52,438 nt of DNA, from the NCBI GenBank assembly GCA_022841665.1, contig JALHRB010000022.1, positions 1 to 52,438 on the forward strand. The letters run 5' to 3'. Below are positions 9,186 to 43,154 of this stretch, one piece after another. The DNA is from Pseudolabrys sp. GTDB lineage: Bacteria > Pseudomonadota > Alphaproteobacteria > Rhizobiales > Xanthobacteraceae. The notes under the pieces are model-generated. The model was given only the letters and a program-made list of their open reading frames with translations. It made no database searches and was not told where the DNA came from. Made by a program: the position numbers and the translations under genes. The first letter of the stretch is position 1. Each line of letters starts with the position of its first letter.

Positions 9186-10187
9186 TCAGAGCGCCGGCCG
9201 GGGCCGGGCCGGCTCAGCGAGCGTGAAGGCCTGCATCGAGAAATAGCCGCGCGCGTCGGTCCAGTTGCCGGCGGGCAGCCAGCCGACGCCGCGCGCCAGC
9301 GCATTCAGCTTGCCCACGCTGTATTTGTAGCTGTTCTCGGTATGGATGGTCTCGCCGGCGCGGAAATCGATGGTTTCGCCGGCCACCTTCACCTTCTGCC
9401 GCTTCAGGCTGGCGAGGTGCATTTCGATGCGATGACGCTCGCGGTTGTAGAAGGCGTGGTGCTCGAAGCAGTCGCGCCGGAAATTGCCGGAAAGCTCGCG
9501 GTTCATGCGCGTGAGCAGATTGAGGTTGAAATCGGCGGTGACGCCGGCGGCGTCGTTATAGGCCGCGTTGAGGACTTCGGCCGGCTTGATCAGGTCGACG
9601 CCGACGATGAGCCTTGCGTTGGCACCCAGCATGCGCCCGGCGTGGCGCATGAACGAAGCCGCCTCGTGCGGCTCGAAATTGCCGATGGTCGAGCCCGGGA
9701 AAAAGCCGACGCGCGCCGGCGCGGCTTTCGCCTCGGCCGGCAGATCGAAGGGGTAGCAGAAGTCGGCCACCACCGGCGTCACCTTCAGCTTGGGAAAATC
9801 GGCGCGCAGCGCGGCCGCTTCCTGCGCCAGCATCTCGCCGCTGATGTCGACCGGCACATAGACGGCGACCTGCGGCGCGGCCTCGAGCAGGAGGCGCACC
9901 TTCTTGTTGGAGCCGCTGCCGAACTCGACCAGCGCGGCGCCGTCCGGAATGAGCTTGGCGATCTCGCCGCCTTGCGCGCGCAGGATCTCCATCTCGCAAC
10001 GCGTCGGGTAATACTCCGGCAGCTCGGTGATGCGCTCGAACAAATGCGAGCCGGCGGCGTCGTAGAAATACTTCGCCGGGATGCGCTTGGGCGTCCCGCT
10101 CAATCCCTCGACGACGTCCTGCGCAAAGGCGGGCAATTCTGCTTGTGCGGGCTGGCGGCGGGGAGAACGGGCAACAGCGACCATCAT
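9186..10187 (-). CDS. egtD: L-histidine N(alpha)-methyltransferase
   Basis: 333 residues, a full-length EgtD-type methyltransferase (DUF2260 group). Motifs include KYFYDAAGSHLFERITELP and YYPTRCEMEILR at the N-terminus, the SAM site LVEFGSGSNKKVRLLLEA, FFPGSTIGNF, and the C-terminal HTENSYKYS typical of the histidine-binding part. EgtD trimethylates histidine to hercynine, the first step of ergothioneine synthesis. It begins 14 bases after the egtB stop, so the two are one operon with egtB first. A second ATG one codon later has better spacing to AGAGG. Confidence 0.93.
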   Translation of the reverse strand: MMVAVARSPRRQPAQAELPAFAQDVVEGLSGTPKRIPAKYFYDAAGSHLFERITELPEYYPTRCEMEILRAQGGEIAKLIPDGAALVEFGSGSNKKVRLLLEAAPQVAVYVPVDISGEMLAQEAAALRADFPKLKVTPVVADFCYPFDLPAEAKAAPARVGFFPGSTIGNFEPHEAASFMRHAGRMLGANARLIVGVDLIKPAEVLNAAYNDAAGVTADFNLNLLTRMNRELSGNFRRDCFEHHAFYNRERHRIEMHLASLKRQKVKVAGETIDFRAGETIHTENSYKYSVGKLNALARGVGWLPAGNWTDARGYFSMQAFTLAEPARPRPAL

Positions 10188-10201
10188 GAACCTCTAAGGC
10201 T

Positions 10202-11461
10202 TCACGCGAATTCGGCCAGGCGCAGGCCGCTGAACTGCCAGCGCGCGGGCGGGTAGAAGAAATTGCGGTAGCTTGCGCGCGCATGGCCTTCCGGCGTGGC
10301 GAGCGACGAGCCCCGCAATACCATCTGGCTGACCATGAACTTGCCGTTGTACTCGCCGAGCGCGCCTTCCGCGGCGCGATAGCCCGGGTAAGGCAGATAG
10401 GCGCTGCGCGTCCATTGCCAGGCGATGCCGAAGGCGTCGGCGAGAAGTCCTGCGCGCGCCGCCACCTCCCATTCCGCCTCGCTCGGCAGGTGCTTGCCGG
10501 CAAAGCGCGCGAAGGCCTCGGCCTCGTAGTAGCTGACATACAGCACGGGGGCGGCCGGATCGACCTCTTTAAGGCCGCCGAGCGTCATGACGTGCCAGGT
10601 TCCGCTCTTTGCGCCGTTCTTCTGGCGCCAATAGCCCGGCGCCTGCCACCCCTCCGCCTGCACTTGCGCCCAGCCGTCGGACAGCCAGAGCGACGGCGTC
10701 GAATAGCCGCCGGCCTCGATGAATTGCAGCCACTCGGCGTTGCTGACCAGATGGCGCGCGATGCGCATGCGCGGGATCAGTTCATCGTGGCGCGGCAGCT
10801 CGTTGTCGAAACAATAGCCTTCCCCGTCATGGCCGACCGGATGGATGCCGTGCGGCACCTCGATGAAGCCGCGCGGTCCTTGCGTGGCGCGCGGCATCGT
10901 CCAACCGGCGTCGTAGACTGGATCGGTGGGGTTCTGCGCGAAGGCATGCAGGATGTCGGTGAGCAGCAATTCCTGGTGCTGCTGCTCGTGATGCAGGCCG
11001 ATCTCCAGGATCGAGAAGACTTCGCCCGCCTTGGCAGCCGGCACGCTCTCGATCAACCGCTCGACCGCGGCATCGACATGGGCGCGGTAGGCGGTCACCT
11101 CTTCGCCGTTCGGCCGCGTGATCAAGCCGCGCTGCGGGCGCGCGTGGCGGGGCCCTGCGGCGACATAATAAGAGTTGAACAGGAAGGGAAAACGCTCGTC
11201 GAAGATCCTGTAGGCGGGATCGTGCGGCACCAGCAGGAACTGCTCGAAGAACCAGGTGACGTGGGCGCGGTGCCATTTCGTCGGGCTGGCGTCGGCCATC
11301 GACTGCACGATCTGGTCTTCGGCCGACAGATGGGCGGCGCGCAGCTCCGTCTCGGCGCGCACGCGGCGGAACGCGGCACGCCAGGCGCCGCACGCCTCCC
11401 CGGCCGTCCGGCCGGCGCGCTGCGGCGCTACCGTGTCTCGCGAGCTCTCGGCGCGCCGCAT
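10202..11461 (-). CDS. egtB: ergothioneine synthesis sulfoxide synthase EgtB
   Basis: 419 residues. The N-terminal DinB-like domain has SPTKWHRAHVTWFFE near residues 59-73 and GLHHEQQHQELLLTDI, which supplies iron-binding histidines. The C-terminal formylglycine-enzyme-like (FGE-sulfatase) domain ends with LRGSSLATPEGHARASYRNF. The enzyme joins hercynine and a thiol (gamma-glutamyl-cysteine or cysteine) oxidatively. A GGAGG site lies 6-7 bases before the ATG. No egtC or egtE follows egtD in this window, so the pathway is completed elsewhere or uses a variant route. The about 230 bases upstream hold no gene. Confidence 0.93.
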   Translation of the reverse strand: MRRAESSRDTVAPQRAGRTAGEACGAWRAAFRRVRAETELRAAHLSAEDQIVQSMADASPTKWHRAHVTWFFEQFLLVPHDPAYRIFDERFPFLFNSYYVAAGPRHARPQRGLITRPNGEEVTAYRAHVDAAVERLIESVPAAKAGEVFSILEIGLHHEQQHQELLLTDILHAFAQNPTDPVYDAGWTMPRATQGPRGFIEVPHGIHPVGHDGEGYCFDNELPRHDELIPRMRIARHLVSNAEWLQFIEAGGYSTPSLWLSDGWAQVQAEGWQAPGYWRQKNGAKSGTWHVMTLGGLKEVDPAAPVLYVSYYEAEAFARFAGKHLPSEAEWEVAARAGLLADAFGIAWQWTRSAYLPYPGYRAAEGALGEYNGKFMVSQMVLRGSSLATPEGHARASYRNFFYPPARWQFSGLRLAEFA

Positions 11462-11692: not shown

Positions 11693-12445
11693 CTAGAACG
11701 ACAGCAGCGTCACGGCCGGCTTGACCTCGACCGTGGGCATGATCTCCGCGAACATCGGCGGGATGACATTGGCGCTGCCGAAGTAAGCGACGAACAGCTT
11801 CGACGCGCCCCAGTTGAATTCATAGGAATAGGTGTTGCCGGCCACGGTCGCGAAATAGCCGGGTGGCGCCGGCTTGCCGGTGCCCGGCCCGGTATCGCCG
11901 GACCGCGAATTGACCGCGACCACATAGGCGTTGTTGCCGCTGGCGTCCTGCGGGCCGCCGATGAAGCCGAAAACCGCGAGTTGCGACGAGTTGAACTGGA
12001 AGATGAGCTGCATCCAGTTCGGGTTGGTCAGGCCTTCCAGCGTACCGCTGGGCGCGATCGGGACCGCCGAGCCGATCGGCAGGGTCTGTGGCGGCGTGCC
12101 GATGCCGGGACCATAGGCCTCGATCCAGATCGGCGTGTCCGAATTCGCGCTTACGTTGGTGACGTTCAGGTTGTTGGCCTGCCAGTTATGCGTGAGGATT
12201 TGCGGCTGCCCCGCCAAGGCCGGCGCGGCGTAGAAGTTGGGAGCCGACCCGCCGCTGGTCAGCGCGAGTTTGCCCTGGTTGTTCATGGGCGACTGGTTCT
12301 GGAACGAGAAGATCATCGAGCCGTTCGGCGTCTGCGCCATGGAGGCGCCGTCATGCACGGCAAGCGAAAGCCCCGTCCCGGTCCAGTTTGCGGTCGTCTC
12401 GAGGCGTCCGAGAATGGAATAGCGGGAAGCGGGCGGCACGGTCAC
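11693..12445 (-). CDS. small paralogue A of the giant-protein operon (unknown function)
   Basis: About 250 residues from a GTG that overlaps the stop of paralogue B as GTGA; no nearby ATG gives a full-length copy, so coupling by overlap is the best start. Motifs shared with B and C, in order: MAQTPNGSMIFSF, ANNLNVTNVSANSDTPIWI, FGFIGGPQDASGNNAYVVA, and GYFATVAGNTYSYEFNW. The sequence is rich in Asn, Gly, Thr and Ser, with short alternating hydrophobic stretches, as in beta-sandwich proteins. No signal peptide, membrane helix or catalytic motif is visible. It is last in the leftward operon of the giant gene. I do not recognise the family. Confidence 0.72.
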   Translation of the reverse strand: MTVPPASRYSILGRLETTANWTGTGLSLAVHDGASMAQTPNGSMIFSFQNQSPMNNQGKLALTSGGSAPNFYAAPALAGQPQILTHNWQANNLNVTNVSANSDTPIWIEAYGPGIGTPPQTLPIGSAVPIAPSGTLEGLTNPNWMQLIFQFNSSQLAVFGFIGGPQDASGNNAYVVAVNSRSGDTGPGTGKPAPPGYFATVAGNTYSYEFNWGASKLFVAYFGSANVIPPMFAEIMPTVEVKPAVTLLSF

Positions 12446-13137
12446 AGGCTTTGCAACAACACCGTCACCGGCTTGGCCGTTTGCGACGACAGGTTCGCCA
12501 CGTAGATCGACACGGCGCTCCAGTTGAACTGGAGGGAGTAGGTGTTGCCGGTGCGCGTCGCGTAATAGCCCGGCGGCGGCGGATTTTGCGGCGGCGGGCC
12601 GGTGTCGGCATCGGCGTTGAGCCCGATGACGTAAGCATTGTTGCCAGTTGCGTCCTGCGGGCCGCCGATGACCGCCAGCGTCTCGGAGGTCGCGGAGTTG
12701 GACGTGAGGCTGAGCAGAATCCAACTCGGCGGCGTGGTGCCTTGCGCGGCCTGCCCGAGCGCGAGCTGCACCGGCGTGCCGGCGGCGAGCGGCATCGGCT
12801 GCGCGCCGGGAATGCCGGGGCCGAAGGCCTCCACCATGATCGGCGTGTCGGTGTTGACGCTGACGTTGGTGACGTTGAGGTTGTTGGCGCCCCAGTTGTT
12901 CAGGTAGATGCTGATCGCGCGCGCCAGCGCCGGCACGTTGAGCGGCAGCGGGACCGAACCGCCGGACGTCACCATCAGGCGCCCGGCATTGTTCTGGGTC
13001 GAGCGATTGAAATAGCCGAGCACAAGCGAGCCGTTCGGCGTCTGCGGCATGGTCACGCCTTGCGACTGGCCGAGCACCGTCGGCGCGCCGTTCCAGGCGG
13101 AATCGGCCGCGATGTAGGCGAAGATCGGTTCGCTCAT
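12442..13137 (-). CDS. small paralogue B of the giant-protein operon (unknown function)
   Basis: 231 residues, starting MSEPIFAYIAADSAWNG behind a GAGGG site. It shares with A and C the blocks TMPQTPNGSLVLGYFN, NNWGANNLNVTNVSVNT, VIGGPQDATGNNAYVIGLN and GYYATRTGNTYSLQFNW, in the same order and at similar spacing, so the three arose by tandem duplication. Predicted mostly beta from its pattern. It lies 72 bases after paralogue C and overlaps A by four bases. No homologue of known function is recognised. Confidence 0.8.
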   Translation of the reverse strand: MSEPIFAYIAADSAWNGAPTVLGQSQGVTMPQTPNGSLVLGYFNRSTQNNAGRLMVTSGGSVPLPLNVPALARAISIYLNNWGANNLNVTNVSVNTDTPIMVEAFGPGIPGAQPMPLAAGTPVQLALGQAAQGTTPPSWILLSLTSNSATSETLAVIGGPQDATGNNAYVIGLNADADTGPPPQNPPPPGYYATRTGNTYSLQFNWSAVSIYVANLSSQTAKPVTVLLQSL

Positions 13138-13209
13138 GCCGGGACCCTCGTTCCGTGATTGGCGCGCAACCCGGCGGCACCGGCCGCCGGGCTGCGTGTG
13201 CGCGTGCAG

Positions 13210-13917
13210 CTACAACGAGATCATCTGCACCGTCGCTTGCGCCGCCGTCGACGGCGACATGTTCGCCACATAGACCGCGGACGAACTCCAGTTGAACTCG
13301 AGCGAATAGCTGTTGCCGCCGGCGGTGGCGTAGTAGCCCTGCGGCGCCGGGTTGCCGGTGCCTGGGCCGGTGTTGCCGAAGCTCGAATTCAACGCGATCA
13401 CATAGGCATTGCTGCCGGAGATCTCCGGACCGCCAATGATCGAGAGCACCGTCAGGTTGGACGTATTCGACGTCAGGATGAGCTGCATCCAGTTCGGGCT
13501 GCTGTTGCCCTGCGCGACCGCCGTCGGCGAAAGCTTGATCGGGGTGCCGATGGGCAGCGGCACGGGCTTCTGCCCGGGCAGCCCCGGGCCGAAGGCTTCG
13601 AGCCAGATCGGCGTCGCGGCGGCGGGGCTGATGTTGGTGATGTTCAGGTTGTTGGCGCCCCAGTTCTGCACCAGAATACTCGGCTGCATGAGCAGCGCCT
13701 GCACAGACAGGAAGATCGGCTGCGAGCCGCCGGAGGTCAGCGCGAGCTTGCCGTTGTTGTTCATCGTCGCGTTGTTCTGATAGGCGAGCACCATCGAGCC
13801 GTTGGTGGTCTGCGGCATGGTCACGCCGTCCGGCGGACTGATGGTGACCGGCGAGCCGTCCCACGTCGTCGTGGAAAGGGCGGCGCCGAGAACTTGAAAT
13901 TTCGGTTTGCTGGACAT
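13210..13917 (-). CDS. small paralogue C of the giant-protein operon (unknown function)
   Basis: 235 residues from MSSKPKFQVLGAALST, with AGAGGG before the ATG. It carries TMPQTTNGSMVLAYQN, QNWGANNLNITNISPA, SIIGGPEISGSNAYVIALN and GYYATAGGNSYSLEFNW, the same ordered blocks as A and B. The frame is open further upstream, but that part is low-complexity out-of-frame sequence. It follows the giant gene by 127 bases on the same strand. The conserved C-terminal block and Asn/Gly-rich turns suggest a compact beta fold and possibly an assembly or carbohydrate-contact role; this is a guess. Confidence 0.8.
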   Translation of the reverse strand: MSSKPKFQVLGAALSTTTWDGSPVTISPPDGVTMPQTTNGSMVLAYQNNATMNNNGKLALTSGGSQPIFLSVQALLMQPSILVQNWGANNLNITNISPAAATPIWLEAFGPGLPGQKPVPLPIGTPIKLSPTAVAQGNSSPNWMQLILTSNTSNLTVLSIIGGPEISGSNAYVIALNSSFGNTGPGTGNPAPQGYYATAGGNSYSLEFNWSSSAVYVANMSPSTAAQATVQMISL

Positions 13918-14044
13918 GGATCCCTCTACTGTTTTCCTGGAGTTTTTCTGGACTTTTGTCGATCGACGCTTCGTCACGGTCTTCTCCTGTCGGCCTCCTT
14001 CCTGACGCTCTCCCCCCGGCCGGCGGCGCCACGCAAGCGCGGCG

Positions 14045-17000
14045 CTAGATCGGGTCGATGTCGGTAAGCTTGAGTTGCAGATTGCTGAACCGCAGCACCG
14101 GCGTGTCGGCGCCGCTGAGCGCCGCGTACAGCATGATGTCGAACACCAGCATCGCGCCGGCGGGCGTTGCGCTGGCCCCGTAGACGATGTTGTTGGTGCC
14201 CGCCCAGGCGTCGATCGCGGCGGCGTACAGCACCGAGAAGTCGCCAAGCTGCGCCGGGTCGTGGCCGTCGATGTCGAACGAGCGCGCCAGCACGATCGGC
14301 ACCAGCGGCGCGATGGATTTATCGTCGTAGGCGGCGCCGGTGGCCGACGGCACCGGGAAGCGGAACGAGCAGCCGACCTTGACGCGCCGCGTCGTGCCGC
14401 TGGTCACCCCGGCGGCCAGATGCGCGTCGCTCAGCGACCGCGCCTGCACCGGATCGGCCAGCAGGTTGGCCATGACGGTGTAGATGCGCTGGCACAGGCT
14501 CGACGGCGACGGCGGACAGGCGTCGCCCGATCCGAGGCTCGGCAGCTTGGCGACGTCGACCGGCTTGGCGTTGTCGATGAACGGCGTGACCGGCTGGCTC
14601 GGCCGCACCAGCGGCGTCATGTAGACGAACTCGGGCACGACGTACCAGTTCTTACCGTCGTTCGACGTCAGCTCGATGTAGTTGCGCTCGATCTGCACGC
14701 CGGCGATGGCGTTCTCGGCGGCGAGCACGTTGAGCGCGTTCACCGAAATCAGATGCGCGACGCCGACGCCTCCGGTCGACGCGTTCTGCACAGTGACGTC
14801 GATGGACTCGGGATTGCTCTTCGACTGCTGGTTCGGATAAGGCGCAAGGTTCTTGGCGGGGTCGAGCGCGGTCAGCGTCAGCGTGACGCCGGCGAAGCTC
14901 GACTCACCCTGCTCGGCCGTCCAGGACAGGTTGATGTGCTGGGTGGTGCGGTCGTCGTCGAGCTTGTCGACGATCACGTATGTATCGGTGACGTTGGCGA
15001 GCCTGAGCGCCTTGCCGAAGGCGAGGCTCGGGTTCCAGTCGGTATTCTTGGTCACCTCGGTGACGCAGTTGGCGAACATGCCGATCGAGTCGGTCCACTT
15101 CGGGCTTTCCAGATCTTGCAGGAACGGCCGGATGACGTCGGTCACGGCCGAGGTGCGCGCCAGCGCCGTGAACAGGTCGTAGGGCCCGTCGTCGGCGCCG
15201 AGCGCCTTCAGGCGGGCGTTGCTCTGCGGCGGCCGCAGGTCGGTGTTGTAGGTGATGGCGCTGTTGACCTGGTCCTGCGCCGCCAGGAACACCTGATAGG
15301 TGTAGAGGTAGTTCCATTCGGCGCCGTTGGCGATCGTCACCGGCGGCGTCGTGGGCGGCGTCCAGCTCTGGCTCACCAGCGTGGGCGGCGTCGGATACTG
15401 GCGGAAGACGACCGGGATGGTGGTCAGCGCGCCGGCCGGGCCGATGTGCGGAATGTCCTGCGGCGGATAGGGATCGATGAGCTGCAGCCAGAGCGAGGGC
15501 CGCGCCTCCCCCGGCGCGCCCGGCGGCGCCAGGAAATATTGCAGGTTGGTGACATTGAAGCGCAGGTCGAAGGGAATGGTGGCGCGGTCGGCGACGTCCG
15601 GGTTGCCGTAGAGGAAGGTGAGCGGGCTCGGGCCCTTGCTGTTGATCGCCACATGCGCGGTCGACAGCCCGGCATTCTGCCGCGTGCCGACGAAGGTGCC
15701 GTTGCCGGTGCCGCCTGTAAGCACGATCGTAAAGGTGGTGGCGTCGACCACCGTGACCGAATAGACGCCGTTCGGCGGCGTCTGGCCGCTCTGCATGGCG
15801 AAGACCATCAGCACGCGGTCGCCGTTCGAGAGCGCGTGCGCATTGACCGTCTTGGCGGTGAGCGTGCCGGCCTGCCAGCTATAGGCGCCTTGCAGCATCG
15901 CCTCGACCAGGCCGAACAATTCGATATAGCCGTCGGCGGCCGACGATACCGGCTTGTTCCAGATGACGTCGTATTGCGTGATGGTGTCGACCGAATAGGC
16001 CGTCATCAGCGCCGAGCGCATCTGCTGCTCGAACACCGTGCGCGCGACCGAGAGCTGACTGGTCGTGCCGGTGAACGGCGACTGCGCGTCGAAGAGCCAG
16101 TCCACCTCGTAGGTGGAGTATTTCTGCGCCAGCGTCTCGCGGCCGCGCGCGATGGCGGTGTAGGCGTCCGGCGCCACCTCGAAGGCCTTGGCGGCGCTGG
16201 CCGCGCCGAGCACGTCATCGACGGCCTGGAAAAAGGCGCGGTTGAGCTGGTCGAGATCGACATTGACGAACTGCCGCTGCGCCGGCAGCGACGGCAGGTT
16301 CGGCGGCATCTTCGGCAGCGGCACGGTGGCGCTGTTGAGCGTGTTGTCGAGCGGCGTGGGCGACAGGAAGCGCGGGCCGGCATTGGCGCCGGCGCCGATG
16401 GTGATGTCGAGCATCGACGCCTCCGCCGCCCAGATCGACTGCGCGCCGGTGCGCGCGCTGCCGGAGCCGTCGGTGGCGAGCTTGCGCGACTTGAGGGCGC
16501 GGCGCGCCTTCGCCGTGCTCGACAGATGCGTCTGTGGCGGCGGCGACGACGACTGCGTGCCGTTCATGCCGACGGCGAGCTTGCGCGCCGGGTAGGCCGT
16601 GACGAAGTCGGCGGCGAAGGCCGACATGTTGTTGGCGCCGCCGGTATTGGCGACGAGTGTCGCCGCCACGTTCTGAGCCGACGGGAAGATAATGGTGCCG
16701 AACTGGTCCTTGAGATAAGGCGAGATCAGGTTCGGATCGCGCTGGATGCCGAACAGGGTGACGATCTCGAACAACGGCGGCTGCGTGCCCGGCCCGTCGA
16801 TGACCATGGAGATCGTGACCGGCCCCGGGAACGAGCCGCCGCCGGACAGCCAGCCGACGATGGCGCCGACCATGGCGGTCACTTTCTGCGAGTCGGCGGC
16901 GCTGACCGGGAACTGCACGAGGCTCACGCCGTCGGCCTGCAACGCCAGGCTGCTCTCGACATAGAAGGAGACGCCCGGCCCGGTGATCTGGTCGTTGATG

Positions 17001-20000
17001 GTGCGGAAGGTGGTAAGCGCAGCCTGCCTCTGCTCCGGCGACATGCCATCGAAGGTCGACTGGCTCGGCGTCAGGCGGATGATGACGGTGTTCGGCTTGG
17101 GCGCGATGCCGCCGCCGAAGTCGAAGGTCGGAACCACGCCCATCCATTGGTCGAGCGGAACGAGCGGGTCGAAATAGAGGTTGGTGGCGGAGAAGGCGCC
17201 CGGCGTCGGCAACTGGTTGCCGAAGGCGTCGTTGGTGAAGAACGACAGCGCGAACGGCGCGTCGATGCTGGCGTAGCGGTCGGGATTGGGCTGGCCGATA
17301 TTGGCCTTGGCCACGTTGTAGAGCGGCGCGAACACGCGGTAATCGTCGTTGGGATCGATGTCGTCGGGCTTCTGCGGCTGCAACGGCGCCGACAGGTTGC
17401 TGGCGATGAAGCCGGCGCTGGCGTCGACCTGGTAGGTGACCAGCCCGTAAAGCGCGTTGAGCGCGGCCGGCGCGGCGGCCATCGCCATCAGTTCGGCGTG
17501 CAAGGCGTCGTCGCCCAGGCCTTCGGCGCGCAGCATCCGGATGGCCTCGCCGCGCGTTAAGCCCTGCGTGCCGGAAAGCTGCATGCGGGCGGCGAGTTTC
17601 GGCGTCGCCTTCAGGCGTGTGACCGCGTCGGAGCGCGACAGCGAGACGCCGAAGGTGCCGGCGGCGACCTTGACGTAGCGCACGTCCAATGCCGGATCGT
17701 CGGTCTCGGCATAATAGACCAGGCTGCTCGTCGTGTTCGCGAGCACCGCAGCGTTGTGATAGGGCTCGATGGTGAGCGGCGACGTCGGCGTGTTCATGCC
17801 GACGCCGGGCTTGTAGCCGATGAGCAGCGTGACCTGGCCGACGCCCTTGACGAACAGCTTCTCCGGCAGCGAATGGCCGGCGGCGTCGATGAAGCGCAGG
17901 TAGTAGCCGGCGGCGTTGGTGACGGTCGCCTGCTGGACGATCTGCACGAAGCTGTAGCCGCCGTCGTCGCCGATCTGCGAAGTCGCGCCGACCGCGACCC
18001 CCTGCGGCAGCGGCGTCGCCATCGCCATGAAGCCCTGCGGCGGCTGCGACACCGAGGTGGTGTTGGTGCGCAGGACGAAGACCGCGCTCGGGTCGACGGT
18101 AGCCGACACCAGCCCCGGCGCGTTCGCTTCGGTCTGATAGAGAATTTGCAGCGACGCGATCGGCCGGTTGCCGGCGCGCAGGTCGGCGAGGATGCAGCCG
18201 AGCAGCGCCTCGTCGGACTGGCTGGCGCCGGACAGGCCGAAGACGTCCGGCAGGAAGGTGCCCGGCGCACCGCTTGGTACCTGCTTGACCGTCAACGTAA
18301 TGGCGGTCGCGAAGGCGACGTCGGCGGCGGGCAGCGGCGTGCCGTCCGGTAGATAGGGGCCGTCGGCCGCGCGCGACTTCACCAGCACCGGGATGCCACT
18401 TGTTCCCTGCATCGCCTGCAGGCGCGCCAGCGCCGTGGGGAAAGTGCGCAGGCTCAAGGGGTTGCCGGTTGGCGGCGACCACACGATCGCGCTGTCGAAG
18501 GCGAAGGCCTGCGGGCCAGTCGAGGTTAGCTCGATCGCGACCGGGCTGCCGGGCTTGGTAACCGACGACTCGGTCAGGTTGGTGTAAGGCGCCACCCACG
18601 TGCTGGTGAGCGAATAATTCCCGTTGGAAATCTTGAGCCAGCTTTGCGTCACATCCGGGTTGCTTAGAACGATGCTGTAGGCGTTGTCCTTGGCGAAGCC
18701 ACCGACCGGGAATTGCTGCCAGAGCAGCGCGAATAGCGGGTTCGTGGTGGTGAGCGCCGCCCCGCCCGGCACCGTCATGCCGTCGGTGTAAGGCAGGCGC
18801 AGGCCGCCGCGCAGCGCGCTCGACATCTGGCCGGCGAGTTGCTGGTAGAGCGACTGCGACGTCGGCGTCGGTGCGCCGGCCACCGCGCAGAACAGGTCGG
18901 TGAGCTTGGCCTGCGTGAGGTCCTCGTTCTGCATTGTCGCCAGCAGCTGGTGCACGGCGCCGCGAATGAGGCCCTTGAAGTAATCGAGGAAAATCTCCTG
19001 CGTGAGTGGCGCCATCGTCTCCATCAACATGCGCGCCGACGGCGCATTCTGCGTCTGGTTGACGAAAAGCTGATTGAAATAGGTATCGACCTGCTGGAGG
19101 TAGCTCAGCGGCACCGTGTTCTTCGACTGGAACTGGTAGGAGAAGTCGGCCGGCTTGCCGCCCTCGGTGCGCCCGCTGGTGGCGATGTTGAGGAAGGGCG
19201 GCATCGGGAAGGCGGTCGCGCTCGCGTCCTTGGTCGGCAGCGCGGCGTTGCCCTGGAAATTCGCCAACTGGGTGAGAACGGCCGGGTAGTCGAGCCAGCC
19301 GGTGAGCAACTCGGGCTCGCTGTCGATGTCGCGCAGGCCGATGCGGCCGCTCAACGGGTCGCTCTCCAGATAGACGACCGAATCGTAGGACGGCAGGCTG
19401 AGCGCGTGCATGAGCGCGAAGGTGGCGAGCTGCGTCGCCACCGCTTCGAAAGGCCTGAAGTCGGCGTACGTCGGATTCTGCTTCGGGGCCTGCTCGTATT
19501 CGATGCCGAGCGACACGACTGCCCACGGCGTACCGACGGCAGTCGCGTTGGGGAACAGCACCGTGAGCTCGGGCAAGTACAGCAGCGGCAATGCGGCGTT
19601 GAGACCGGGCAGCAGGCCGAGCGCGGCCGGCGCGGAGAGCCTGCGCTCCGAGGTACAGCGGGCGATGAGCGCGACGGTCTGCGTGTCGGCACTGCCGACG
19701 AGATACCAGTCGAAACGGAACGACGCGCGGAAGCTGAAGCTGATGGTGACCGAGAAAAAGCCGAGATTGATGCTCACGCTCGCGCTGACGGTGACGCTCG
19801 CGTCGATATAGAGCATGATCGAGCCGTCGCTGCCGGCCTTCGGCTCGTAGGTGAGGACGATGCCGATGCTGGCCTGCAAACGGACGTTGACGCTCGCCTT
19901 GATGATGACGAAGTCGACCGAACCGTAGATCTCGCCGATGATGCCGAACTGGCCTTGCAGCGAGAGCGCGTCCGGCGTGCGCATGATGTCGCCGGCGCCG

Positions 20001-23000
20001 GCGGTGAGATAGCCGGCCGCGCCCTGGATGATGCCGAAGAAGGTGACGCTGATGCCCGCCTTCAAAGGCCCGGACGTGAAGTCCTTGCCGATGCCGAGCC
20101 GCGCGGCGAAACCGAAGCCTTCGATGACGGCGTATTCGCCCTTGAAGACGTCCGGATTGGTGGCCGAACTCAGATAGGCGATGTAGAAGCCGCCCGAGCC
20201 GGTGACCGGCACCGGGCCGGCCTGCGCCTGCACCTGGAAGCACGGGCTCCAGTCGTCGCCGTCGGGGAAGCCGAGGTCGACCTTCCAGTTGCCGTTGGTG
20301 TAGACGTCGATCTTCAGGGTCGGCAGCGTGACCGAGGCGGCGCCGACGTTGAACGTGCGCAGGCTATCGGGCAGCGCGATGGTGGTGGCGAACAGGCCGA
20401 TCGTGTCGCTCACCTTGGTGTAGGTGATCTCGAACACGAAGCCTTTGCCGACGCCGCCGACGAGCTTGATCTGGAGCGAATAGAACGGCGTCACGTCGTA
20501 GAAGACGAGGCCGACCTCGATGATCTTGAGCAGGCGGAAATCGGTGACGATGAGCCACTTGCCGTTCGGGTGGTAGATGTCGCCGTATTCCTTGTCCTTG
20601 AGCTTCTCCCAGAACGTCGTCTGCATGTATTCGAGGAATTCGTCGAAGCTGGTCGGCGACTCGGCCGGGTCGGGTCCGACGCGCTGGCCGAGCCCGACAT
20701 AGATCAGCTCGAAGACGCCGCCTTCCTCGCCGCCGCCGTTCTTGTCGTCCTCTGCCTTCTTGAGCGCGCGCAGCGGCGGCAACACTTCCTGCCGCGCCAG
20801 GCGTTTTTCGGGCTCGCCGCCGCCGCCGTTTTTTTCCTCTGGCTCGCCGCCGCCGCCATCCTCGCCGAGATTGTAGGCGGCGATCCAGCCGATCTGGTCG
20901 GCGCCCTCGGTCGGCGCGAACAGGCCGAAGCTGATGAGCCCCTTGGGGGGAATGCGCGTGCCGAAAATCTCGACGTAGCAATTGTTCATGCCGAGCACGA
21001 GCATCTTGGGCTCGGTACTGGTCGCGTATTCGAGGTTGAACTGCTCGATGGAGATCGTGATCACACCCTGGATCTTGATCTCGAGCTTGCCGTCCACCTG
21101 CGGCAGCTGCACGCCGACGGCGACGCCGCCTTCCTTGCCGCTCAGCCAGCCGATCAGGATCGAGAACTTGAAGGCGGAAAGCGAACCGACCAGTCCACCC
21201 ATCGAACCGAGATCGAGATCGAAGACGAGCGCGTAGTTGAAGGTGTCGTGCAGCTTGTCCTGGCCGGCCACGGCGCCGAGCGAATAATAATCGAGGCTCT
21301 CGATGGTCTCGTCGGCGTGCTGCGAATAGAGGAACGACTTGAGCTTGAACGGGATCAGCTTGGTGAGGCTGTTGCCGCCCTCGCGCTCTTTGGTCGCGCC
21401 GAGATCAAGCCGCAGGTTGCCGGGCGCGAAGCTCAGCTTGAGATTATCGGTCGAGGGTTGCTCGCCCTTCGGCGTGGTCAGCTCAAAGGCGACGTCGATG
21501 CCGAGGTCGGAGAACTCGAGCTTCTCGAAGGAGAAGAGGTCGAGCACCTCGAGTTCGTTGAACTCGAGGCTGCCCCAGATGCCGAAATGCGCGCTGATCA
21601 GCATGGTGTCGGGCTTGGGCGGGACAAGCGCCGTTTCCTGATCGAAGGAAAACTGCAGCTTGGTGAGCTCGATCTGCTTCAGGTACTTGTTGTTCGGCTC
21701 GCCTTCCTTGTCGGCGAATTCGTAAGTGAAGTCGCCCTCCGCCACGAAGGAATAGACGCCCTCCCCCGAGCTCGCGTCGTCGCCGCTGGTGCTGTTGGCC
21801 TGATAGGAGCCGGTGATGACGATGGTGTTGCCCGAGTCGCCGCCGTCGGCGGCAGCATCGCCGGGAGGTTCGGGCGCGGGCTCGTCTTTCTTCTCCTCCT
21901 CCTGCTGGACCTCGGTGTCGAACAGGTTGTTGATGGTGAGGTTGATCTTGCATTCGAAGGTGCGCAGCTCGGAATTGGTGAACAGCGCGCGCAGATACTC
22001 GACCTCGAAATTATATTCGATGCTGAGGCCCGGCGGCGGCGAGTCGCCCGCCTTCTCGTAATCGACCAGCGCGAACATGGCGCTGCGCGCCAGCGTCGGC
22101 GTCGTCGCGTCGGGGTCGGTGTTGTTGATGGAAACGCCGGCATGGTGGGCGCGGAAGCCGGCGATGCCGGGGTCCTTCATGCCGCCGAGCACGGCCTTGA
22201 TCGCCGTCGGCAACTGGCTGAGCTCGATGTTGCAGTTGACCGCCAGGATGCCGTTGAAGCCGGGGTCGGTGACGATCTGGACGAAATTCCAGTAGATCGA
22301 GTCCGTGTCCGGATCCTCGCCGTCGCCGTACACCGCCTTTTTGGCGTCGGCGATCACCTGCTGCAGATAAGTCTGGATGCCGTCGGGATCCGTATTGAAC
22401 GTGTCGGCCTGCGACCACAGGCGCGTATCGCCGACCAGATCCTCGATCGAGGAGTCCGGATAGAACTTCATGATGAAGATCGGCGGCGTGCCGTCGGGGG
22501 CGCCCAGCGTCCCGGGATCGAGATTAAAGGTCCAGTCGCCGATCTTCAGATCGCTGGCGGTGAAATCGAACAGCTTCACCGCGCGGTCGAGCGGGTCGTC
22601 GGTGGTGTTCGGGTTGACGCTGATGACGGTGAAGATCTGGTTCTGCTGCACCGCCTTCTGGATCGACGGCCCCATGTCTCCCATGACCAGGGGGCCGGCG
22701 TCGCTGATCGCCATGTCGAGCCCATTCCAGGTGGGCGGCGTGCCGGACAATTCGGCGATCATCCCCTGCGGCGTCATCGCCTTTGTCGGCGTCTCGTCCG
22801 CGGCGGCGGCGGCGAGCGTCTTGGGCGGCGGCATCGAGGTGTACAGATTGGCGCGCGTGGGATTGAGCGCGTTCGATTCCATCCCGATGAATTGGTCGAG
22901 CTTGATATTGGGATCGGTGGCGAAGGGCACGCCGGCATAAGGCGCCAGCGGCGTCGGCGGCGCCGTCTGCGACGCCAGCCAGCTATCGACCGGGTAGAAA

Positions 23001-24283
23001 TCGAGGATGTGGACGTTGAGCCCCGACGCCGGCGCCTCGCCTTTGAGCATCGCGGCCTGCGTCCCGGCCTGCTTGAACAGCGGCGCGCGCTCCGGCTGCG
23101 AGACATAGCCGCCGGCCTTGGTGACGATGCGGCCGTAGGAGGTGGTCGCGATGCCGTCGAGATAGACCGGCTTGGTCTTGGTATCCGCCGCCGACGGGAT
23201 GAGATAGGCCGGCTGGGCGGGAACGAAATCGAGGCTGTCGGGCGCGCCGCCGAGCTTGACCGAGAGAAATTCGGTGCCGGTGACACCGCACAGCATCTGC
23301 ACGCTGTCCGGCAACGTGGCGACGCCGTCGAGCGTGAGGCCGAACTGACCGGCCGGCGTCAGATAGTAAAAGCTCTGGTCGGCCGGCGACTGCATCGGCC
23401 GCCCGGCGAAGACCAGCCGGCTGGTGGCGTTGACGTCGCCGTTGACGGTCTTGAAAGCGAAGGACTTGCCGTTGGCGGTGACGTAGTTGCAGCCAATGAG
23501 CGGATCGGTGAACTGGAAGAAGGTGCGACTGGGATCGGTCGCGGCGAGGATGTCGAGCGTGACGTTGAAATTGAACGGCGCGGTCGAGCCGCCCGCGCCG
23601 CGGAACACGGGATAGCTCAACGCACCGACCTGACCGCCGTCGACCGGCGGCGAGAAATACATCATCCCCGCTTCGAACTGCGTCAGATTGTCGGTGGTGA
23701 ACTGGAAGGTGACGCAGGCGGTGCCGGCGAGCGGCCCGGTCATCGGCAGCGCGGTGTAGGGCGCCGTCGAATTGTAATAGACGGTCGCCCCGCCGGGCTT
23801 TGTCACGTTCATCAGGAAGACGCTGGTGAGCGCCTGCGGATTGGCGATCTGGAGGCTGTTGGAGGGATCGTCGAACAGCACCGTGGTGCTGCCACCGAAC
23901 TGATCGGGCTGCACCTGATAGGTCACGCTCTGGCGGAACACGAGCGAGAAGGATTGCGACACGGTCGGCGTCGGCGTGCCCTGGCCGGTCACGTAGACGA
24001 GCGTCGGCGCTATCGTCAGCGGCTCGGGAAACCAGCCTATCTGCGTGCCGGCATTGCCGACGAAGCTGTTGCGCAGGCTGGCCGCGAAGGCATTCCAGTC
24101 GCGGTCTTTCGAGGGTACGAAGAATGCGACATAGCCGAGCTGGTTCGGATCGACCCAGCTCTGCGCGGTGAGCTGGTATGTCGCCGGTGAAAGCTGGGCG
24201 TTCTGGAAGAGGAACGCGACGCAGGCCTTTTCGGGCGAGTCCGCGAGATAGAGACCGCTCGACTGGCGCGTGAACTCGATCAT
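14045..24283 (-). CDS. giant beta-rich protein of 3412 residues, function unknown
   Basis: One uninterrupted frame of 10.2 kb with a GGGGGA site 6 bases before the ATG (MIEFTRQSSGLYLADSP). There is no signal peptide and no clear membrane helix. Rough layout: residues 1-780, mixed beta; about 790-830, acidic Pro/Gly/Ser linker (QQEEEKKDEPAPEPPG); 830-1140, amphipathic strands; about 1140-1190, two Gly-Glu linkers (GEDGGGGEPEEKNGGGG); 1400-1530, long alternating-residue strands (VNVRLQASIGIVLTYEP, SVTVSASVSINLGFF); 1700-1900, helical (LTQEIFLDYFKGLIRGAVHQ); about 2590, basic linker (AKARRALKSRKLA); about 2810-2870, a segment resembling the E1-FCCH beta module seen in phage proteins (NGVYSVTVVDATTFTIVL). 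No catalytic motif was found. It is first in an operon with three small paralogues. I do not recognise the family. Confidence 0.85.
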   Translation of the reverse strand: MIEFTRQSSGLYLADSPEKACVAFLFQNAQLSPATYQLTAQSWVDPNQLGYVAFFVPSKDRDWNAFAASLRNSFVGNAGTQIGWFPEPLTIAPTLVYVTGQGTPTPTVSQSFSLVFRQSVTYQVQPDQFGGSTTVLFDDPSNSLQIANPQALTSVFLMNVTKPGGATVYYNSTAPYTALPMTGPLAGTACVTFQFTTDNLTQFEAGMMYFSPPVDGGQVGALSYPVFRGAGGSTAPFNFNVTLDILAATDPSRTFFQFTDPLIGCNYVTANGKSFAFKTVNGDVNATSRLVFAGRPMQSPADQSFYYLTPAGQFGLTLDGVATLPDSVQMLCGVTGTEFLSVKLGGAPDSLDFVPAQPAYLIPSAADTKTKPVYLDGIATTSYGRIVTKAGGYVSQPERAPLFKQAGTQAAMLKGEAPASGLNVHILDFYPVDSWLASQTAPPTPLAPYAGVPFATDPNIKLDQFIGMESNALNPTRANLYTSMPPPKTLAAAAADETPTKAMTPQGMIAELSGTPPTWNGLDMAISDAGPLVMGDMGPSIQKAVQQNQIFTVISVNPNTTDDPLDRAVKLFDFTASDLKIGDWTFNLDPGTLGAPDGTPPIFIMKFYPDSSIEDLVGDTRLWSQADTFNTDPDGIQTYLQQVIADAKKAVYGDGEDPDTDSIYWNFVQIVTDPGFNGILAVNCNIELSQLPTAIKAVLGGMKDPGIAGFRAHHAGVSINNTDPDATTPTLARSAMFALVDYEKAGDSPPPGLSIEYNFEVEYLRALFTNSELRTFECKINLTINNLFDTEVQQEEEKKDEPAPEPPGDAAADGGDSGNTIVITGSYQANSTSGDDASSGEGVYSFVAEGDFTYEFADKEGEPNNKYLKQIELTKLQFSFDQETALVPPKPDTMLISAHFGIWGSLEFNELEVLDLFSFEKLEFSDLGIDVAFELTTPKGEQPSTDNLKLSFAPGNLRLDLGATKEREGGNSLTKLIPFKLKSFLYSQHADETIESLDYYSLGAVAGQDKLHDTFNYALVFDLDLGSMGGLVGSLSAFKFSILIGWLSGKEGGVAVGVQLPQVDGKLEIKIQGVITISIEQFNLEYATSTEPKMLVLGMNNCYVEIFGTRIPPKGLISFGLFAPTEGADQIGWIAAYNLGEDGGGGEPEEKNGGGGEPEKRLARQEVLPPLRALKKAEDDKNGGGEEGGVFELIYVGLGQRVGPDPAESPTSFDEFLEYMQTTFWEKLKDKEYGDIYHPNGKWLIVTDFRLLKIIEVGLVFYDVTPFYSLQIKLVGGVGKGFVFEITYTKVSDTIGLFATTIALPDSLRTFNVGAASVTLPTLKIDVYTNGNWKVDLGFPDGDDWSPCFQVQAQAGPVPVTGSGGFYIAYLSSATNPDVFKGEYAVIEGFGFAARLGIGKDFTSGPLKAGISVTFFGIIQGAAGYLTAGAGDIMRTPDALSLQGQFGIIGEIYGSVDFVIIKASVNVRLQASIGIVLTYEPKAGSDGSIMLYIDASVTVSASVSINLGFFSVTISFSFRASFRFDWYLVGSADTQTVALIARCTSERRLSAPAALGLLPGLNAALPLLYLPELTVLFPNATAVGTPWAVVSLGIEYEQAPKQNPTYADFRPFEAVATQLATFALMHALSLPSYDSVVYLESDPLSGRIGLRDIDSEPELLTGWLDYPAVLTQLANFQGNAALPTKDASATAFPMPPFLNIATSGRTEGGKPADFSYQFQSKNTVPLSYLQQVDTYFNQLFVNQTQNAPSARMLMETMAPLTQEIFLDYFKGLIRGAVHQLLATMQNEDLTQAKLTDLFCAVAGAPTPTSQSLYQQLAGQMSSALRGGLRLPYTDGMTVPGGAALTTTNPLFALLWQQFPVGGFAKDNAYSIVLSNPDVTQSWLKISNGNYSLTSTWVAPYTNLTESSVTKPGSPVAIELTSTGPQAFAFDSAIVWSPPTGNPLSLRTFPTALARLQAMQGTSGIPVLVKSRAADGPYLPDGTPLPAADVAFATAITLTVKQVPSGAPGTFLPDVFGLSGASQSDEALLGCILADLRAGNRPIASLQILYQTEANAPGLVSATVDPSAVFVLRTNTTSVSQPPQGFMAMATPLPQGVAVGATSQIGDDGGYSFVQIVQQATVTNAAGYYLRFIDAAGHSLPEKLFVKGVGQVTLLIGYKPGVGMNTPTSPLTIEPYHNAAVLANTTSSLVYYAETDDPALDVRYVKVAAGTFGVSLSRSDAVTRLKATPKLAARMQLSGTQGLTRGEAIRMLRAEGLGDDALHAELMAMAAAPAALNALYGLVTYQVDASAGFIASNLSAPLQPQKPDDIDPNDDYRVFAPLYNVAKANIGQPNPDRYASIDAPFALSFFTNDAFGNQLPTPGAFSATNLYFDPLVPLDQWMGVVPTFDFGGGIAPKPNTVIIRLTPSQSTFDGMSPEQRQAALTTFRTINDQITGPGVSFYVESSLALQADGVSLVQFPVSAADSQKVTAMVGAIVGWLSGGGSFPGPVTISMVIDGPGTQPPLFEIVTLFGIQRDPNLISPYLKDQFGTIIFPSAQNVAATLVANTGGANNMSAFAADFVTAYPARKLAVGMNGTQSSSPPPQTHLSSTAKARRALKSRKLATDGSGSARTGAQSIWAAEASMLDITIGAGANAGPRFLSPTPLDNTLNSATVPLPKMPPNLPSLPAQRQFVNVDLDQLNRAFFQAVDDVLGAASAAKAFEVAPDAYTAIARGRETLAQKYSTYEVDWLFDAQSPFTGTTSQLSVARTVFEQQMRSALMTAYSVDTITQYDVIWNKPVSSAADGYIELFGLVEAMLQGAYSWQAGTLTAKTVNAHALSNGDRVLMVFAMQSGQTPPNGVYSVTVVDATTFTIVLTGGTGNGTFVGTRQNAGLSTAHVAINSKGPSPLTFLYGNPDVADRATIPFDLRFNVTNLQYFLAPPGAPGEARPSLWLQLIDPYPPQDIPHIGPAGALTTIPVVFRQYPTPPTLVSQSWTPPTTPPVTIANGAEWNYLYTYQVFLAAQDQVNSAITYNTDLRPPQSNARLKALGADDGPYDLFTALARTSAVTDVIRPFLQDLESPKWTDSIGMFANCVTEVTKNTDWNPSLAFGKALRLANVTDTYVIVDKLDDDRTTQHINLSWTAEQGESSFAGVTLTLTALDPAKNLAPYPNQQSKSNPESIDVTVQNASTGGVGVAHLISVNALNVLAAENAIAGVQIERNYIELTSNDGKNWYVVPEFVYMTPLVRPSQPVTPFIDNAKPVDVAKLPSLGSGDACPPSPSSLCQRIYTVMANLLADPVQARSLSDAHLAAGVTSGTTRRVKVGCSFRFPVPSATGAAYDDKSIAPLVPIVLARSFDIDGHDPAQLGDFSVLYAAAIDAWAGTNNIVYGASATPAGAMLVFDIMLYAALSGADTPVLRFSNLQLKLTDIDPI

Positions 24284-24445: not shown

Positions 24446-24479
24446 AAAAAAACGCCGCGGACCGTCCAGGTCCGCGGCG
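24446..24479 (-). terminator. rho-independent terminator of the NitT/TauT-type binding-protein gene
   Basis: Read leftward, an 11-base perfect stem (CGCCGCGGACC / GGTCCGCGGCG, five-base loop) is followed by seven T. It starts 18 bases after the stop of the gene at 24497 and separates it from the giant-gene operon. Confidence 0.88.
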
Positions 24480-24496
24480 CTATGTGAAGGCGTGAC

Positions 24497-25471
24497 TTAC
24501 TGCCTGGGACCGGAATAGAGCGTCTTTTCGCCCGGATCGCTCGGCATCAACTCGACGTCGACGCCGACCTTGTAGATCGCCAGCAGTTCCTTCTTGATGT
24601 CGTGCGGCCACTCGACCTTCATGCCGAGGCGCTTGTTGTCGCGGATGAGCGTCGCGACGAACTTCTGCCCTTCCGCGTTGCTCTTGGGCGCGATCAGCTT
24701 GCTCGCCTCGTCGGGATTGGCCAGCACCCAGGCTTCCGCGTCCTTATAGGCGTTGAACAGCTTCACCGCCGTCTTCGGATTCTTGGCGATCCATTCGTCG
24801 TGCGCGGCCACGCCGAGATAGGGAATGTCGGTGGTGCCGGTGAACTTCTTCCAGGTCTCCTCGATCTTCAGGTCGAGCGAGCGGATGCCCGGCTTCTGCG
24901 AGCGCAGCAGGTCGAAGCCCGGATCCCACATGTGCACGGCCGCGGCGCGGTCGGCCATGGCGTAACCCATCAGGCCCGGCGGCGCGGTGTTGACGATGGA
25001 CACCTTGGACATGTCCACGCCCTGCTGCTTGGCGAACCAGGTGAAGATGCGGTAGCTCGACGTGCTCGCCGCCGCCGCGACTTCCTTGCCCTCGAGGTCC
25101 TTCAGCGTCTTGATGTCCGGACGCGAGGTGACGACGTAGGACCAGTAGTTGAACACGTTGAACAGGTACGTGACCTTGACGCCGCGCGCGGCGGCGAGGC
25201 CGACGGTCAACAGCGCGGCGCTGCCGCCGACCTGAAACTCGCCGGTGTTGAACTGCACGGTGTAGGCGTCCGGCGGGCGCTCGACGAACTCGATGTTCAG
25301 CCCGTGCTTCTCGTCGAATTTCTTCGCCTTGATGACCGGCGGCAGGAACGCGCCGAGCGACGGCGGCCCGAACACGACCATCCGCAAGTTCTCCAAATTC
25401 TGCGCGCCCGCAGAGCCGGCGGCGAGGAGGCTCGCGCAGGCGGCGGCCCCGATCAGCTTCAGCAAATTCAT
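24497..25471 (-). CDS. ABC transporter substrate-binding protein, NitT/TauT (SsuA/THI5-like) type
   Basis: 324 residues with a signal peptide (MNLLKLIGAAACASLLAAG, cleavage near SAGAQN). The mature part follows the family pattern: PPVIKAKKFDEKHGLNIEFV, GEFQVGGSAALLTVGLAAARG, the DLEGKEVAAAASTSSYRIFT switch region, and a C-terminal helical segment (NAYKDAEAWVLANPDEAS). Such proteins feed nitrate, sulfonate or thiamine-precursor importers. The start is the ATG behind GGAGGAC. No permease or ATPase gene is adjacent, so it may serve a transporter coded elsewhere. Ligand unknown. Confidence 0.88.
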   Translation of the reverse strand: MNLLKLIGAAACASLLAAGSAGAQNLENLRMVVFGPPSLGAFLPPVIKAKKFDEKHGLNIEFVERPPDAYTVQFNTGEFQVGGSAALLTVGLAAARGVKVTYLFNVFNYWSYVVTSRPDIKTLKDLEGKEVAAAASTSSYRIFTWFAKQQGVDMSKVSIVNTAPPGLMGYAMADRAAAVHMWDPGFDLLRSQKPGIRSLDLKIEETWKKFTGTTDIPYLGVAAHDEWIAKNPKTAVKLFNAYKDAEAWVLANPDEASKLIAPKSNAEGQKFVATLIRDNKRLGMKVEWPHDIKKELLAIYKVGVDVELMPSDPGEKTLYSGPRQ

Positions 25472-25515
25472 GACGTCCTCCGGATGTTGTTCTTGTGCGC
25501 GGGCGCGCAAGCGTC

Positions 25516-42521: not shown

Positions 42522-43154
42522 TCAGCGCAGTGCGGCGATGGTGATGGAAAGACCTTCCATCGTGGCGTCGTGAGTAGCGGGCCCGTATGGGCGCAACAGG
42601 GCTTCGGCAGGCAGTGAAAGGTCGCTTGCCAGCGCAAACGCGCCGACGCGCTCGCCGGCGGCGATGGTCAACGTGAAAGCACTCGTCCACGTCGCACCGT
42701 AGTCGAGACTTTTCTTGAAGGTGACGATGACTTGCGCGGTTGGCACCTCGTCGACCGCAAAGCCGACGCTGCCCGGACACCCGGCCGGAATTGTCAGCGG
42801 CGTCACAACCGGGAAGGCCGGAAGCGCCTCACCATCGCCAAGCAGTCCGGTCGATGAAAACGGGATGTCGTAGCGCTCACCTTCGATGACAAGCCAGTGA
42901 TTGCCGCCATCATCGATGATCGTCGGCGTCGTTTCGCTGAGATCGTCTGCCGATGTGTCGCTCGTATCCTTCCGAAAGAACCGCGACCCAACCATGATGC
43001 GCGTGCGGCCGGACAGGTCGCGGCTGCGCACATCGGCACATGTCGAAAAGGCCCGCAGCACAGCCTTGAATTCGGCCCGCGTGCCGGGCTTTTCGACGTC
43101 GTCGTCATCGACGTCGCTGGTCAGTCCGACAATTTGATCAACGGGGTCGGTCAC
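42522..43154 (-). CDS. prophage tail-region protein, unknown
   Basis: About 210 residues from a GTG that overlaps the stop of the preceding fibre gene (GTGA) with GAGGA 7 bases before it; another GTG at 43178 is possible. Contains FKAVLRAFSTCADVRSRDL and a beta-rich second half (AQVIVTFKKSLDYGATWTSA) suggestive of an Ig-like or lectin-like appendage domain. Function unknown. Confidence 0.7.
   Translation of the reverse strand: MTDPVDQIVGLTSDVDDDDVEKPGTRAEFKAVLRAFSTCADVRSRDLSGRTRIMVGSRFFRKDTSDTSADDLSETTPTIIDDGGNHWLVIEGERYDIPFSSTGLLGDGEALPAFPVVTPLTIPAGCPGSVGFAVDEVPTAQVIVTFKKSLDYGATWTSAFTLTIAAGERVGAFALASDLSLPAEALLRPYGPATHDATMEGLSITIAALR

Follow-up and report, generated by a model that had tools for sequence, protein, structure and literature searches.

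A conserved four-gene unit from Pseudolabrys belongs to a widespread family of giant proteins

Results

Layout of the locus

The window, by which we mean the whole stretch of 52,438 bases that was analysed, is a complete contig (C22) of a 3.85-Mb draft genome. It holds a giant gene followed on the same strand by three small paralogues, A, B and C, which share 47-53% pairwise identity (Table 1). An earlier note on this DNA, made from the sequence alone, had described a 3412-residue giant and three homologous genes separated by gaps of 127 bases (giant to A) and 72 bases (A to B) and by a four-base overlap (B to C), and the open reading frames bear out this layout; small gene A also has an alternative GTG start at 13977 that would yield a protein of 255 residues. 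The terminator that the note had placed upstream is likewise there as a terminator-like hairpin and T-run, read from 24481 to 24451, on the 3' side of an NMT1-type transporter gene (25510..24497). Across the whole region such sites number 11 against 8.0 expected, barely over chance, and promoter-like sites number 2 against 1.3 expected, not above chance. GC content at the locus is about 0.66, in line with the surroundings, and the long open reading frames on the opposite strand, up to 1783 residues, go with this high GC. The lack of signal peptides and membrane helices noted beforehand appears to hold as well: the highest 19-residue Kyte-Doolittle mean is 1.55 in the giant and 1.17-1.27 in the small proteins, with no standout helix, and none of the four N-termini looks like a signal peptide when judged by eye.

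Table 1. Features of the four-gene locus in window coordinates
Feature	Position	Strand	Description
Fused giant, 3412 aa	14045..24283	-	No known family; homologues elsewhere
N-module of giant, residues 1-1140	20864..24283	-	Separate gene in split class
Central domain, residues 1185-1532	19688..20731	-	Most conserved part; close to C-module start; family marker
Run of three predicted beta-strands, strongly amphipathic, residues 1458-1533	19685..19912	-	Structure model
Remaining C-module, residues 1533-3412	14048..19687	-	Holds LysM domains in many relatives of the split class; the window has none
Small paralogue A, 235 aa, ATG start	13210..13917	-	Open reading frame and homology
Small paralogue B, 231 aa	12442..13137	-	All-beta by prediction (mean pLDDT 81)
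Small paralogue C, 250 aa, GTG start over stop of B	11693..12445	-	Open reading frame and homology
Intrinsic-terminator-like site	24451..24481	-	Stem of 13 pairs (10 GC) followed by T-run; behind upstream gene

Family and database searches

None of the four window proteins has a credible match in Pfam (best E 0.12), NCBIfam or PHROGs (best E 0.078), and profiles built on the small proteins and on giant residues 455-1625 find none among PDB sequences. The PADLOC anti-phage profiles, run on the window proteins only, matched none of them. DUF6603 (PF20248), a large and uncharacterised family that the earlier note had named as an example for the profile check, is absent from the window proteins in a Pfam scan at E up to 10, and we dropped it as an identity for the giant; a search for it in genomes returned 0 of 10, with the controls also silent. 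The giant thus fits no characterised family in the libraries used, and the suggestion that this is an undescribed system holds as far as it was tested against Pfam, NCBIfam, PHROGs, PADLOC and PDB. We recognised no description of the giant family among the open PubMed Central papers that our searches listed, and within those searches and the libraries named the family is apparently undescribed. A viral origin is unsupported: a search of viral contigs turned up nothing related to the central domain or to the small proteins, and plasmid records contain one match to a 1000-residue piece of the giant and none to B. Foldseek against viral models gives generic matches with TM at most 0.35 among the 50 matches listed.

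A unit shared with Mesorhizobium

The earlier note had proposed looking for genomes in which giant and small genes co-occur, and four Mesorhizobium genomes (M. sophorae, M. carmichaelinearum, M. qingshengii and the genome G953) carry a fused giant of 3390-3430 residues followed by three small paralogues, ordered as in the window. The window giant is 65-66% identical to these four giants, and its small genes pair with the Mesorhizobium copies by position: A scores best to the first copy (64-68% identity), B to the second (58-64%) and C to the third (56-59%), although the third-over-first margin of C is slight (257 versus 252 bits in M. carmichaelinearum). In a simple count of the Nei-Gojobori type that left out the third copy of G953, dN/dS is 0.32-0.39 between the window giant and the Mesorhizobium giants, 0.12-0.15 among the latter and 0.06-0.41 for the small genes A, B and C. 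Judged by these ratios all four genes are under purifying selection, and judged by homology and kept order they are one conserved unit. The note had staked its proposal on a giant outside known, characterised families and on small genes that recur beside giants, and both are what we find in the libraries and genomes searched.

These results also bear on the most trivial reading of the locus, a long open reading frame arisen by chance next to a tandem duplication with no common function. A GC content of about 0.66 does yield long spurious reading frames, but full-length homologues, an order kept in four other genomes and dN/dS values well below 1 refute this reading, to which we assign practically no weight.

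In the order, the small family was found in one genome of 397, that of the window itself, and in the phylum, with B alone as the query, in two of 398, the window's own and one with a weak match containing stop codons. Five of 146 genomes in the genus of M. sophorae carry it: four have three open copies each, always exactly three and always behind a fused giant, and the fifth, G999, has a fragment only. The third small gene at the locus L077 is open up to its normal end. In G999 (L114:14257-14352) the fragment is a remnant of small gene C near multicopper oxidase, tyrosinase and LodA-type genes, and the four-gene unit seems to have been lost there.

Split and fused giants

Giant relatives are rare: 4 of 199 related genomes have one, as do 9 of the order's 397, and both counts include the window's own genome. 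When 84,980 species were scanned, limited to a sequence pattern and with one genome per species and flanks of at most about 10 kb, the result was 67 related loci in about ten phyla: Cyanobacteria, Acidobacteria, Bacteroidetes, Actinobacteria, Firmicutes, Chloroflexi, Verrucomicrobia, Eremiobacterota, Aminicenantes and Proteobacteria, as read from record titles and in some cases assigned via genus or class. Many of these giants are encoded in two parts. Residues ~200-1140 of the window giant match a 1252-residue Nostoc protein, and residues 1185-3412 match a 2953-residue protein encoded two genes beyond it; the window giant has both the homologous N-module and the central domain, and so belongs to a family of split and fused giants. 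The 67 loci comprise 47 split, 12 fused and 8 in which the C-module was seen alone. The split giants of Pseudomonas sp. GM50, Nostoc carneum plasmid3 and the genome G161 have N- and C-modules homologous to those of the window, but consist of two genes with an enzyme gene between or upstream of them, and two of the three have LysM domains, all of which the window lacks.

We placed these proteins in a tree of 73 central domains, from 65 of the 67 loci (two were too short) plus the window, L012-L014, L113 and L115-L117, built by a quick method that gives SH-aLRT supports in place of bootstraps. The window groups with the four Mesorhizobium rows (SH-aLRT 100), and this group lies within a clade holding 15 of the 17 fused rows (SH-aLRT 99). 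The two fused rows outside it are L065 and the long-branched L014; L013 was counted as fused, with its C-terminal part in another gene. Tandem short proteins that look beta-rich also lie by other giants, at L041, L042, L043 and L045 (132-163 residues) and at L014 (136-268 residues), and profile comparison does not link the small proteins of other branches to A, B or C (probabilities under 1%). Nor does it link the end of the N-module to the central domain (0.2%).

An exchangeable enzyme in the split class

Between the N- and C-genes of the 47 split loci we find EEP genes, of a nuclease type, in 17, genes of the metallo-beta-lactamase (MBL) fold in 10, a deaminase in one and an HNH-like gene in one; in five others (L037, L041, L042, L043 and L045) an EEP gene lies directly upstream of the N-gene instead. 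The EEP and MBL counts come from a profile search over all 67 loci, with MBL genes at L058 and L072 and an EEP gene at L063 among those found, and total 22 of 47 for EEP and 10 of 47 for MBL. In 13 of the 47 the EEP and MBL profile search leaves no recognised enzyme. Four of the eight C-module-only loci (L029, L050, L052 and L085) have an EEP or MBL gene. By the same search there is none in the 12 fused loci, and they are absent too from the window, L013, L014, L113, L116 and the extended Mesorhizobium stretches L118-L121.

Across 19 aligned EEP proteins the N, E and H residues, the D and N of GDxN, and DH are all invariant, and nine of ten MBL proteins keep HxDxDH (L064 is the one without it); we take these to be the catalytic positions. 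Pfam recognises the EEP proteins to varying degrees (E 1.7e-8 in L027, 1.1e-8 in L041, 2.2e-6 in L051 and 0.0067 in L045, with no match in L044 or L047) and the MBL proteins weakly (E 0.0016-0.0017 in L040 and L062, no match in L038 or L054). The deaminase, at L036, is Bd3614-like (PF14439, E 1.8e-10; MafB19-type PF14437, 8e-7) and has a PCHMC motif. Bd3614-type deaminases count as toxin-type; the name returned nothing in open PubMed Central papers. The HNH-like match, at L030, has an E of 8e-4 and 19.9 bits against a Pfam cut-off of 21.4.

Enzymes of nucleic-acid-active types in a family spread patchily over about ten phyla might instead mark an intracellular defence or stress system, in which the giant senses, the slot enzyme destroys foreign nucleic acid and the fused forms are derived. 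One MBL protein does weakly resemble an anti-phage MBL protein, with 19.4 bits against a cut-off of 220. We consider a defence role quite improbable: the window proteins have no PADLOC match, the upstream EEP proteins of L041, L042 and L045 have starts that look like signal peptides by eye, and LysM domains are a poor fit to the cytoplasm.

LysM domains and partner P

A profile built from the loci themselves finds LysM domains in 36 of the 47 split and 4 of the 8 C-module-only loci, with up to 22 in one locus, and in none of the 12 fused loci. The segments behind the central domain, up to 780 residues long, contain Pfam LysM in 33 of 58 cases, and single members also match Phage_tail_X and Phage_BR0599; the window giant has no LysM domain by Pfam. 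A second recurrent component, which we call partner P, accompanies 33 of the 67 loci (26 of the 47 split, 6 of the 12 fused and 1 of the 8 C-module-only ones). It has no Pfam match, and its C-terminus is reminiscent of SLBB export domains. A search for partner P elsewhere in eight genomes found it in one (G161); the window's genome and the four Mesorhizobium genomes gave no match.

These domains raise the prospect that the giant is a surface or extracellular-matrix protein with no toxic role, tied to peptidoglycan by LysM domains in the split class and bearing lectin-like beta-sandwich subunits for adhesion or biofilm formation. Besides the LysM domains themselves, this reading can draw on LamG domains in two Nostoc neighbours, on the predicted all-beta fold of small B, and on a signal- or lipoprotein-like start of partner P in five loci (L060, L082, L083, L084 and L087, by eye). 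It leaves unexplained why exchangeable nuclease-type enzymes and a deaminase should sit between the halves of the giant, and the giants themselves have no visible signal peptide; on balance we regard it as rather unlikely.

Predicted structures

Small B, modelled from an alignment of eight close sequences, is predicted with a pTM of 0.77 to have 18 strands and no helix. Its best Foldseek matches, with TM at most 0.48, are proteins with beta-sandwich domains, the SID1 ectodomain and collagen-binding domains among them. Many of the proteins matched have two such domains in a row, and we infer from these matches that B, too, may consist of two sandwiches. The earlier note's picture of a scaffold with repeated subunits fits these predictions, in that B is modelled as all-beta and weakly resembles non-enzymatic beta-sandwich proteins.

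For the giant we modelled residues 455-1625, about one third of the protein (mean pLDDT 80.8, pTM 0.64). Strands of 13-20 residues follow one another in runs, both where the N-module ends and within the central domain. In each of the three strands at residues 1461-1529 one face is 90-100% core-hydrophobic and the opposite face 10-11%; in the N-module strands the amphipathic pattern is less clear. Over the whole giant there are 26 amphipathic windows against a mean of 3.9 and a maximum of 27 in 200 shuffles, and 5 amphipathic clusters against a mean of 1.5 and a maximum of 5; since the shuffle maximum equals the observed number of clusters, the count alone is not decisive. Neighbouring clusters, by position, are found in the central region at L077 and at four loci of other branches (L022, L044, L045 and L084). 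The conserved core of the giant is predicted to be a long amphipathic beta-sheet.

The best Foldseek matches of this piece are LptD, porins, ushers and apolipoprotein B; microsomal triglyceride transfer protein is matched as well. As modelled, the giant would share with LptD, outer-membrane barrels and apolipoprotein B a long antiparallel beta-sheet with an alternating pattern; the structural likeness is weak and generic, and there is no sequence match in PDB. TM to outer-membrane barrels reaches at most 0.14 when scaled to the query and 0.35 when scaled to the target length, values so low that the matches say long beta-sheet and nothing beyond. It is conceivable, if improbable, that the giant is a lipid-binding or lipid-transport machine, whose amphipathic sheets would enclose lipid in a groove or shell, in the manner of LptD, apolipoprotein B and large lipid-transfer proteins; the identity of several matches and the alternating hydrophobic pattern of the strands would suit such a role. 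Set against it, TM to the lipid-protein matches is 0.05-0.20 (at most 0.20 to LptD and its beta-groove fold, for the modelled third of the giant), porins match at least as well, the enzyme slot is left unexplained, and the recurring neighbour clusters hold no recognised lipid-metabolism gene, by names assigned by eye.

Discussion

Giant proteins encoded by genes of 9-14 kb are costly, yet the family described here recurs in about ten phyla, is nameless in the libraries searched, and is under purifying selection where this was examined, in the window's branch. From homology and gene content, the unit in the window is a branch of the fused class within this widespread family, and has no enzyme gene, LysM domain or partner P.

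We tentatively propose, at somewhat less than even confidence, that the giant is a membrane-engaging scaffold, that the split class is armed with an enzyme, and that the window's branch has three binding subunits in its stead. The long amphipathic beta-sheet at the core of the scaffold would engage a membrane or lipid. In the split class, one exchangeable enzyme of a nucleic-acid-active type would be the payload of an antagonistic particle, and the LysM domains would grip the cell wall. In the window's branch, A, B and C would be three specialised, non-enzymatic binding subunits, docked on or displayed by the giant, that stand in for the LysM domains and the enzyme; this branch may represent a payload-free form serving in membrane attack, adhesion or competition. 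What speaks most for conflict is that unrelated nuclease-type enzymes and a deaminase occupy one position, a pattern known from conflict systems. Among the strongest doubts about the mechanism are the lack of a secretion signal and the 13 split loci without a recognised enzyme. The low TM values of small B (at most 0.48) and of the giant piece (at most 0.35), the presence of the deaminase at a single locus, the HNH-like match below Pfam's cut-off, the shuffles that reach the observed amphipathic counts, the lack of a profile link between A, B and C and the small proteins of other branches, and the two fused rows outside the main fused clade also count against the proposal. EEP and MBL folds, too, are known in housekeeping and other functions.

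A bolder version of this proposal, which we consider doubtful, is that the family forms a new class of antagonism machine spread over some ten phyla, in which a beta-sheet giant made in two parts would insert into membranes or bridge them and carry one exchangeable nucleic-acid enzyme, encoded between its halves or next to them, and that the window holds a derived, fused form in which three diversified binding subunits have replaced the enzyme and the wall anchors. The giant family could be an unrecognised delivery machine, and the window's branch offers a small version, with four genes and no enzyme, that also occurs in Mesorhizobium, which is open to cultivation and mutagenesis.

In polymorphic toxin systems, as outlined in PMC3482391, the toxins are C-terminal domains and are accompanied by immunity proteins. 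The split class resembles the systems outlined there in its wide spread and in combining exchangeable enzyme types with a conserved part, but differs in that the enzyme is a separate gene where those systems have a C-terminal toxin domain. Enzyme genes that may be the counterpart of their exchangeable domain occur in the split class, and in none of the 12 fused loci. Polymorphic toxins have known export routes (T2, T5, T6, T7, PVC, Tc); Pfam scans of the proteins of the window and of L045 found no trafficking domain, and the window proteins have no signal peptide as judged by eye.

Neighbouring genes

The surroundings of the giants vary. In Mesorhizobium (L118-L122) multicopper oxidase and LodA-like genes recur 3' of A-B-C, in part with LodB-like genes, the names resting on Pfam for some copies and on inspection by eye for the rest; at L120 and L121 the interval contains three tail-collar genes in tandem and a gene of autotransporter type (by eye). 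The account in PMC4417212 describes LodA-type quinoproteins as amino acid oxidases, of a group tied to hydrogen peroxide and microbial competition. No LodA-like gene is seen among the window genes by the operon, where EgtB/EgtD-type genes take the downstream position: a histidine-specific methyltransferase gene adjoins an FGE-sulfatase-type gene (9186-11461), and the pair is presumably EgtD/EgtB of ergothioneine synthesis. Further along the window, a DUF2793 gene (43151-44872) lies within tightly packed one-strand reading frames at about 41-52 kb, which may be a prophage or gene-transfer-agent region.

Beside other giants, homologous SbcC/SbcD-like gene pairs (by eye) lie on the opposite strand in two unrelated genomes (L079:1-2890 and L082:1-3165), which may be chance. 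Related genes for proteins of 221-260 residues lie upstream of split giants in a rhodobacterial genome (L073:191-2002, two in tandem) and a lachnospiral genome (L081:1774-2556). At L060 a subtilisin-like gene (19071-20024, by eye) follows immediately 3' of the split giant.
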